Notes under the pieces: model-generated
Seen by the model: only the letters and a program-made list of their open reading frames with translations
Told to the model about the DNA's origin: nothing
Database searches by the model: none
In this document: positions 943-36,566 of the stretch, one piece after another
How the letters are laid out: each line of letters starts with the position of its first letter
Position numbering within the stretch: the stretch's first letter is position 1
Position numbers and translations under genes: made by a program
Source: Diacronema lutheri
Lineage: Eukaryota > Haptophyta > Pavlovophyceae > Pavlovales > Pavlovaceae
Length of the DNA: 40,000 nt
Assembly (NCBI GenBank): GCA_019448385.1
Contig: JAGTXO010000078.1
Span: 1 to 40,000 of the forward strand
Reading direction: 5' to 3'

Positions 943-3900
943 ATGCACGCGGACCCGCCGCCAGTGGCGAGCCCGCACACGGGGCCTGCACCGACCGCCG
1001 CGGCCGCCGCGGCCGCCGCCGCTGCAACGTCCGGAGCCCCCGGAGCGGCGGGAGGGCGCCATACTGCCACCGCGGCGAGCAAGCGCGCTGCCGCGCAGCC
1101 GCAGCTGCAGCCGCCGGGCGCGAGCGCAACCGGCGCAACCGGCGCCGACGCGGACGGTGGACCCGTCGCCAAGCGCGCGCGCGCCGCCGCGTGCGCGAGC
1201 GCGCGCGCAACGCGCGCGGGCGCGCGCGGCGGCATGGGCGCGTGGCCGGGCGCGTCCGAATGTGCGCGGCCGGACTGCGGCGAGGCGTGTGCGCTCGCTG
1301 AGACGGCGGTGGAGGCGGGCGGCGCGGCGGAGATGGACGTGGATTGCACCGGCTGCGATCCGCGCGCGCCGCGCCGCGGCGCCGAGCGCGCCGCGTCGGC
1401 CGCCGCGGGCGCGTCGTGCGGCGTCGACGGCGGCGGCGGACGCGGCGGACGCGGCGGGCGGCGGAGCGGCGGCGGCGGCGGCGAACGCGGCGGATGCGGC
1501 TCGGCGGCCCACACGCCGCCCGTGCGAGGGCAGCCGCTCGTGCACCCGCGCACGGGCGAGCTGCGCAGGGTACGCTCGTTACCCACCATGCTCGGCGCGG
1601 GCAGCTCGGCCGAATTCACCGGCGCCCGGCGCCGCGCCGGCGGCGCGTGCGGTGGAGCGGCGGACGTTGGCGTCGCCGGCGCGGGCGTGGGCGCGCAGCG
1701 CTCGATCGAGCTGCCCGCGCTCACGCCGTTGGAGCGGCTGGCGGTGAAGGTGCGCACGCGGTGCTGCGGCCGGCCGCCGCTCGCGCCGCCCGCGCCGCCC
1801 GCCCGCCGCGCTCGTCGCGCAGCGGCCGCGCGCGCGCGCGCGCGCGGCGCGCGGCGCGCGCGGCGGCCGCGCGCGCCGAGCCGCGGCGCGCGCGCGCTCG
1901 CCGCGGCCACGGCGTTCCACCAAGCGCGTTCCGATGCGACCGCTGCACTTGCGCTTGGCCATTCGCGCGCCAACTGCCGCCGCGCTGGCGCCGGGCGCGT
2001 GCGTGTACCCAACCCCCCCCCCCCCCCCCCCCCCCTCCCCCCCTTTCCCTCCGTTCCCCTCCTTTCCTTCCTCCCCCCCCCTTTCCCCTCCCCTCCCCTC
2101 CCCTTTCCCCCCCTTCCCCCCCTTCCCCCCCTTCCCCCCCCTTTCCCCCCTTTCCCCCCTTTCCCCCCCTTTCCCCCCTTCCCCACCCTGTTCCCCTTCT
2201 CCAACCACCGTGCGCTCACCCGCGCCCGCGCCCGCGCCCGCGCCCGCGCCCGCGTTCCTGCGCAGGGCCTTGTGGAGGGCCCTGGCCCGTGGCAGCCCAG
2301 TCGCGTCTCGAGCGGCCGCGCGGCCGGCGGCGCGTGCGCCGGCGGCTTGGCCGGCAACGCGGACGGGCGCGCAGGCACGCGTGGCGGAGGGTGCGGTGCG
2401 GCCGTTTCGGCCGTTTCGGCCGTTTCGGGCGGTGGCAGCGGAGGGAACGGCCCGCCCCGCTTCGGCCCGCACGCGGCTGCGGCCGCAAGCTACCTGCGCA
2501 CCGCGCCAACGCTCGTCGCGATCGCCGCCAAGCCGCGCAACGTCGCGGCCGCGCCGGCCGCCGGCGCGCCCGCCGAGGCGGACGAGGGACCCTGCGGTGG
2601 GGTTGGGCCGGATGCGGCCGTGGGCGCGGCTGGCGCTGGCGGCGGTGACGCGCTGAGCGCAGGCGGCTGCGTGGACGATGGCGGTGGCGGCGGTGGTGGT
2701 GGCGGCGGTGGTGGCGTTGGCAGCGGCGGCGGCGGCGGCGGTGGTGGCGGCGGCGGCGGCGGCGGTGGTGGCGGCGGTGGCGGCGGGCTGCTGCGCGCGC
2801 GCTCGCTCGCGGCCAATCTACACACGTACGGGCGGGAAATGGCGTTGTTGCAACGGCTGTTTGAACACAACGCCGCGTCGCTCGCTGCGTTGCACTCGGG
2901 CGACGTGCGGGCGGGCGCGGCGGGCGCGGCGGGCGCGGTTGGCGCCGCCGGTGGCGGCGGCGGCGGCGTCGGCTGGGCGTTTCTCAACTCAACGTGCGGC
3001 ATCTGCGACGGCGAGATGCGCAGGCCCGTCTCGCTGCTCTGCCGCCATCGCTTCTGCTGGGAATGTCTCAAGGCCGTCATCGGAATCCATGGCTGCCCGC
3101 TCTGCGAGCGCGAAGCGCACGCCACGGCGGCCGCGGCCGCGCACGCGGCGGCGGCGGCAGTTGCGGCGGTTGCGGCGAGCGGTCGCGCGGGCGTGGACGC
3201 CATGGATGGCGATGGTGGATACGATGGCGGATACCATGTCGGATACGATGTCGGATACGATGTCGGATGCGATGGCGGATGCGATGGCGGATGCGATGGC
3301 GGCTTGCCTTCGGCGACGGAGGCGGTCAAGGCGGAGACCGTCACGGACAGCGACGGCGGCACGGCGGCCGCGGCCGCCGCCGGCGGCTGCGTGGCGGCGG
3401 CGGGCGGCGCGCGCGGCGCGGGCGTAGGTTGCGCGGGTGGCGTAGCGGTGGGCGGTCAGCTCGCGGCGGTTTCGTCGGACGGCGGACGCGCGCCGCCGAA
3501 CGCCAACGCCGCGGCGACGACCGCCGCGCACGCGCACGCGGCGGCGGACGCGAGGGCCGCCGCGGAGGCGGCGGAGGCCGCGGCGGCCGCGGCGGCCGCG
3601 GCGAACCCGCCGTCCATCTCCGGCCTGCTGCCAGGTGCGGCGCGGCGCGGCGCGGCGCGGCGCGGCGCGGCGCGGCGCGGCGCGGCGCGGCGCGGCGCGG
3701 CGCGGCGCGGCGCGGCGCGTGGACGCACGCGGACTGCACGGAGGTGCAGTCCGCGGACTGCACGGAGGTGCAGTCCGCGGACTGCACGGAGGTGCAGTCC
3801 GCGGACTGCACGGAGGTGCAGTCCGCGCGGACTGCGTGCAGTCCGCGCGTGGAGGCATGCGGACTGCACGCACGGATGTCCGTCGAGCGCGCGTGCGCCC

Positions 3901-36566: not shown

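Follow-up and report, generated by a model that had tools for sequence, protein, structure and literature searches.

Pure runs of C, many of them longer than 20 nt, are scattered over the first 40,000 nt of contig C57 of Diacronema lutheri (the whole stretch analysed, hereafter the window), and the question raised by this locus is whether they belong to introns, on which strand and at what distance from the acceptor they lie, and which protein might read them. The GC-rich genome that we searched comprises 43,492,796 bases in 103 contigs; the accessible part of the published genome description (PMC8379373) gives 43,502,671 bp, 103 contigs and 73.25% GC for strain NIVA-4/92, sequenced with PacBio and polished with Illumina reads; strand-specific RNA-seq is described there as well, and neither intron tracts nor U2AF are mentioned in that part. 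Runs of at least 10 nt number 18 for C and 4 for G in the window. Eleven C runs reach at least 20 nt, where base composition predicts about 1e-4 for 40 kb, as do four G runs, and chance is no explanation for them. All runs located by the preliminary description are present within a few bases of the places it gave, while a C60 at 1-60, a C23 at 6176, a C42 at 12400 and a G33 at 9558 were absent from its list. Their settings are as follows.

2013-2035, plus strand: a run of 23 C at the start of a C/T-rich stretch reaching to about 2190.
4569-4745, plus strand: possible intron with a sense run of 20 C (4629-4648) 97 nt ahead of its acceptor, proposed by the gene-model HMM only.
6095-6198, plus strand: runs of 24 C (6095-6118) and 23 C (from 6176) behind a donor-like GTGCGC; at 6237-6626 a coding segment scores on the minus strand.
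9558-9590, plus strand: a run of 33 G among plus-strand coding segments, probably intergenic (run scan, coding segments).
12400-12465, plus strand: runs of 42 C and 12 C, non-intronic, with convergent coding segments on either side (run scan, coding segments).
16796-16892, plus strand: runs of 23 C (16796-16818) and 20 C (16873-16892) with no coding segment nearby (run scan, coding segments).
22084-22321, minus strand: intron GTGGGT..GCGCAG of the leucine-rich-repeat (LRR) gene, following that at 22673-22917, 238 nt, with a sense run of 24 C (22107-22130, G on the plus strand) ending 23 nt before the acceptor; splicing predicts an LRR protein.
22673-22917, minus strand: LRR-gene intron GTGCGC..CACAG, 245 nt, with a sense run of 23 C (22727-22749, G on the plus strand) ending 54 nt before the acceptor; splicing predicts an LRR protein.
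22972-23199, minus strand: upstream LRR-gene intron, acceptor at 22972, with a sense run of 22 C (23002-23023, G on the plus strand) whose end lies 30 nt ahead of it; for the 5' end, 23199 is suggested by the HMM only.
31593-31898, plus strand: probable intron GTACAC..TCGCAG (coding-model HMM) with a sense run of 22 C (31696-31717) and the acceptor 181 nt further on.
32623-33239, plus strand: probable intron GTGCGC..TCGCAG (coding-model HMM) with sense runs of 10, 10, 23 (32943-32965) and 28 C (33069-33096), the nearest 143 nt from the acceptor.
34549-34561, plus strand: a run of 13 C (run scan).

The gene on the minus strand at 22-23 kb yields, when spliced, a leucine-rich-repeat protein with LRR_4 and LRR_8 matches above the Pfam cut-offs, and its plus-strand G runs are therefore runs of sense C. 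The earlier assignment of the listed runs to introns thus holds for this gene; for the runs at 2013, 4629, 6095, 6176, 16796, 16873 and 34549, homology does not fix the setting. The G33 at 9558-9590 lies ahead of a plus-strand open reading frame and may be a sense G run, in which case, if intronic, it would count against a bias to C. A 91-state gene-model HMM run on 184 kb over-split the genes; its introns were left out of all counts and its borders are taken as suggestions only.

To see how common such introns are, we relied on a first set made up of gaps between adjacent same-strand matches of one protein family, defined without regard to base composition. Eighty gaps were taken with 60 nt flanks (25 from kinases, 35 from kinesins and 20 from myosin heads); gaps over which the profile was largely missing, most one-frame myosin gaps, the sole AMP-binding pair and two kinase gaps were excluded. 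A phase-consistent splice solution was obtained for 79 gaps, 29 of which can be read through in frame, leaving a strict set of 50 introns with a median length of 148 nt; one gap without a splice solution (L058) was counted on homology and frame. Runs of at least 10 C occur in 7 of the 50 strict introns and runs of at least 10 G in none, and among all 80 gaps the corresponding numbers are 11 and 1, the latter (L030) carrying both kinds. Poly-C in almost all introns, as the preliminary description had it, is therefore wrong: about one intron in seven carries a run in the strict homology set, which also means that runs are not required. Nor are they intron-specific, since they occur outside introns too. 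The commonest ends in the solved gaps are GTGCG on the donor side and GCAG on the acceptor side; the best solutions for the strict 50 predict 40 GT and 10 GC donors, an earlier solution scheme having let GC donors drift up. The word GCGCGC is found in the first 20 nt of 32 of these 50 introns, in the last 20 nt of 27 and in the middle 20 nt of 17, and such alternating-CG ends could pair with each other.

Bias in both the orientation and the position of the C runs is well supported. Among 26 run-bearing introns outside the window, 22 hold only sense C, two only sense G and two both (p = 3.6e-5; this and the following p values for orientation assume independent introns). The excess persists if two ambiguous sites are scored as G (22 v 4, p = 5e-4), if introns are grouped into genes by hand (15 v 1, p = 5e-4) and in the homology set taken alone (10 v 0, p = 0.002); in an unselected set taken alone it amounts to 7 v 2 (p = 0.18). 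The claim that the runs lie on the sense strand thus survives as a bias.

This second set consists of 15 stretches (144 kb) chosen blind to runs, in which coding segments were called with a codon model derived from the homology flanks and retrained once on its own strong segments. Tried on 120 sixty-base flanks, which are its own training data, the model chose the correct frame for 114, and a control on backward sequence gave 157 real versus 72 reversed segments at a cut-off of 20, the one used for the segment list, and 95 versus 8 at 40; the control being unclean at low scores, weak flanks are unsafe. Four of 13 same-strand gaps were removed as coding or intergenic (L009, L012, L022, L023), and the 10 readable run introns comprise seven with C only, two with G only and one with both. 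Among the spliced products are helicases of the SNF2 type (L010) and the eIF4A type (L021) as well as an adaptin (L018), and Helicase_C and Adaptin_N score above the Pfam cut-off; three further sites (L013, L019, L020) were read by eye from coding segments, with no Pfam support used. The adaptin gene has one G-run and one C-run intron, which shows that the bias is not absolute. At L015, one of the two G-only introns, the right flank scores 22 and the spliced product has no Pfam match. The eIF4A-like gene, on the minus strand, has a probable GC-AG intron (donor GCAAGC) that holds a sense G24 as well as a sense C57.

The third set comprises 14 sites with C runs, hand-picked from a list demanding CTGC upstream, a requirement that tilts it towards sense G. 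Four of these sites are resolved introns, all with sense C, and L124 is probably C; at L116 and L121 a sense G run adjoins an in-frame stop, for which reason both were kept as ambiguous, and the remaining seven sites are one-sided or lie between opposite strands. The intron of a U2AF65-like gene on contig C69, described below, was added as a further C-only case. Taken at face value, word counts over the genome lean to sense C, with GCAG at most 31 nt after a C14 run in 1292 cases and before it in 925, and CTGC before it in 1713 and after it in 1637; backward-word controls are equally uneven (CGTC 1270 before and 855 after, GACG 733 after and 637 before), and the counts are inflated by repeats, namely the copies at about 21.6 kb on several contigs and an array at C6:129-131 kb. 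The former are a poly-C plus CGGCAG element lying about 21.6 kb from the contig start (C1:21657, C5:21657, C6:21657 and similarly on C2-C4), which suggests a conserved block near contig ends; the latter is a further C-run array, spanning C6:128.9-131.2 kb.

In the 19 introns of known length (16 outside and three inside the window) the median distance from the end of the nearest C run to the acceptor is 24 nt, where uniform placement would give 100 nt (p = 5e-5). Across 28 introns, including five from the window, this median is 28 nt; the nearest C run lies within 60 nt of the acceptor in 20 and beyond 60 nt in eight. Sense G runs, of which four resolved introns contain five, all stop 183-306 nt short of the acceptor (rank test p = 0.0017), and where one intron holds both kinds it is the C run that is proximal to the acceptor, at 35 nt (L021) and 18 nt (L030). 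Should L121 be an intron and not a gene boundary, a sense G18 lies 34 nt from its acceptor. A location just ahead of acceptors, as first proposed, does not describe the two modelled window introns at 31593-31898 and 32623-33239, with their gaps of 181 and 143 nt. In a kinesin intron (L067, C27:390959-391306, minus strand as sense) we observed a second copy of 27 nt of the next exon, accompanied by another long C run; this tandem duplication repeats the acceptor region.

In 37 run-free strict introns of at least 90 nt, ten-base bins over the last 50 nt contain C at 0.47-0.50, G at 0.32-0.38 and T at 0.10-0.13, and no U-rich tract, scored as T5 within the last 40 nt, was found in any of 42 run-free introns. 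The word CTNAY occurs in 12 of 50 acceptor-side regions, compared with 5 of 50 on the donor side and 5.5 after shuffling. Run-free introns are richer in C than in G overall (0.47 v 0.34) and on their donor side (0.42-0.47 C, 0.38-0.41 G), as are third codon positions (0.48 C, 0.41 G), and the excess on the donor side leaves room for a mutational cause. Transcription-linked mutation or repair might enrich the sense strand in C and slippage extend the runs with splicing uninvolved, which would fit run-free introns that are C-rich along their full length and third codon positions that are so too. But such a strand asymmetry predicts neither the clustering at acceptors nor sense G runs that, in resolved introns, all lie at least 183 nt away, and we consider it rather improbable as the explanation. 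We also regard it as unlikely that selection acts only against sense G near acceptors (by way of G-quadruplexes or G-run-binding proteins), with C runs harmless and inert; the large distance between acceptors and all five sense G runs in resolved introns, and the two G-only introns, would agree with this, but the gathering of C runs near acceptors is left unexplained.

A search for candidate readers with the TIGR01642 (U2AF_lg) profile gave 41 matches in the genome and four U2AF65-like loci, on contigs C69, C4, C82 and C78; two other UHM-matching loci resemble RBM39 and SPF45 by eye. Altered U2AF65 RRMs had been raised in the preliminary description, and indeed all seven RRMs at the four loci are nearer to human U2AF65 RRM1 (17-75 bits) than to RRM2 (2-14 bits), whereas RRM2 of the RBM39-like control shows the opposite preference (11 bits with RRM2 versus 4 with RRM1). 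TIGR01642 matched these relatives over its RRM1 part and, at C4, C82 and C78, over UHM positions 407-506, 428-506 and 407-505, respectively; the best exon-wise score is 154.7 bits (P0003, UHM exon excluded), below the curated cut-off of 310 bits. Three of the four loci encode two RRM1-type domains plus a UHM or UHM-like exons. At C4 and C82 both RRMs lie within one open frame, so that the pattern is not made by wrong splicing. The RRM frame is separated from the UHM segment by 127 nt at C82, which leaves no space for an RRM, and by 272 nt at C4, where no coding segment was detected in between. In the C69 gene (624900-632100; L104 and L112) an arginine-rich start is followed by two RRM1-type domains, a linker rich in proline and a repeat intron, and then by exons that look UHM-like by eye. 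At C4 and C82 an R-rich stretch is followed by WD (by eye), which we take to be a candidate ULM tryptophan motif for pairing with U2AF35.

No U2AF65-type RRM2 was recognised in the 7 of 11 matches to the human RRM2 query that were checked (best match 35 bits; the search being exon-wise, an intron-rich gene could escape it). Six of these are closest to CSTF2, RBM8A, RBMX2/IST3, eIF3G (level with PABP), NIFK-type proteins and PABP, and the seventh is a generic RRM. RRM folds are too alike for structure to separate RRM1 from RRM2. Residue D231 of human U2AF65 has a role in choosing U, and its column reads D,D at C4, A,A at C69, G,G at C82 and T at C78. That the U2AF65 relatives have been rewritten is well supported at the level of predicted protein sequence. 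The repeat intron of the C69 gene (L104:1-830, minus strand as sense) holds 10 units spaced 75-88 nt apart, each with a C run of 12-21 nt and CGCAG, the last C run lying 40 nt before the acceptor, and thus offers many possible acceptors inside the gene of a putative acceptor reader itself.

The reader first proposed was instead a C-preferring factor, namely PCBP-like KH proteins. KH_1 is matched 21 times in the genome, with five matches sharing one frame at contig C92; this gave no sign of a PCBP expansion in this genome taken alone, and the five-KH protein is closest to FUSE-binding protein (62 bits) and Nova-1, with hnRNP K and PCBP2 (45 bits) coming after them. A precedent exists in mammalian cassette exons, whose C-rich polypyrimidine tracts, according to the available part of PMC4797308, are bound by alphaCP/PCBP and indirectly by U2AF65. 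With this precedent and the C92 protein in its favour, but no obvious expansion and the nearest relatives lying elsewhere, a PCBP-like KH protein that reads poly-C at acceptors in the manner of mammalian alphaCP appears very unlikely. Descent of the C-run introns from a spreading element, introner-like or by tandem duplication, is most improbable, since in spite of the 10 C-run units of the C69 intron and the duplicated 27 nt and second C run of the kinesin intron, the flanks of other C runs share only C/T richness (by eye).

The explanation that we favour, and to which we would give an even chance of being correct, is that C runs are kept in sense orientation near acceptors as tolerated or useful pyrimidine tracts, read by U2AF65 relatives that have RRM1-type domains only. 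Long dG:dC tracts are present in this GC-rich alga's non-coding DNA, and those in introns persist mostly with C on the sense strand and mainly in the final 60 nt before the acceptor, presumably because a C run there would serve as a pyrimidine tract, or at least leave it unspoilt, where a G run would spoil it. The ordinary introns sampled present an excess of C over G in place of a U-rich tract, and the acceptor would most likely be read by the rewritten relatives. RRM1 of U2AF65 covers the 3' part of the tract. Along the tract, the human protein is specific for U in the 5' region and promiscuous for C in the 3' region, and an extension of RRM1 binds the 3'-terminal nucleotide, as reported in the accessible text of PMC4786784; a protein built of RRM1-type domains should therefore accept C. 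We infer that the runs help splicing, that the U2AF65 relatives bind them and that the doubling of RRM1 confers tolerance of C, which would link the C-run bias to the rewritten U2AF65. A switch to C-tolerant reading of acceptors is plausible on these grounds.

A more far-reaching version, which is possible although we lean against it, holds that Diacronema has changed the base that is read at its 3' splice sites: RRM2 would have been lost and RRM1 doubled so that U was no longer needed, U tracts would have disappeared from a genome with 73% GC, and the C runs would be the strongest tracts left, held in sense orientation by selection. If true, this would be a natural case of co-evolution between a splice signal and its reader. 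To our knowledge, U-rich tracts and U2AF65 are very widely kept, and this makes a joint change of signals and readers hard to test; here is a cultured alga whose sampled introns are tract-less or carry pure C and whose reader protein has seemingly been rebuilt. In genomes of this kind, acceptors may be misplaced by gene finders that learned to expect U-rich tracts. Judged by title, we found no literature on poly-C or C-rich tracts in haptophyte, algal or Pavlova introns, or on haptophyte U2AF.

Compared with human U2AF65 (U2AF2), as far as the accessible part of PMC4786784 describes it, the Diacronema relatives are alike in their RRM1-type domains, in the UHM and, at C69, in a basic arginine-rich start, but the human order RRM1-RRM2-UHM differs from theirs in that no RRM2 was recognised and a second RRM1-type domain takes its place at three of the four loci. 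The Diacronema runs share with the alphaCP-bound mammalian tracts a C-rich rather than U-rich tract before the acceptor; in mammals, however, judging from the portion of PMC4797308 at hand, these form a regulated subset beside usual tracts that are U-rich, whereas a U-rich tract is absent from the sampled Diacronema introns, and the runs consist purely of C over 10-57 nt. Like poly-dG:dC microsatellites, the runs are pure and occur in intergenic DNA and near contig ends as well, but unlike them, those within Diacronema introns are oriented and placed relative to the acceptor.
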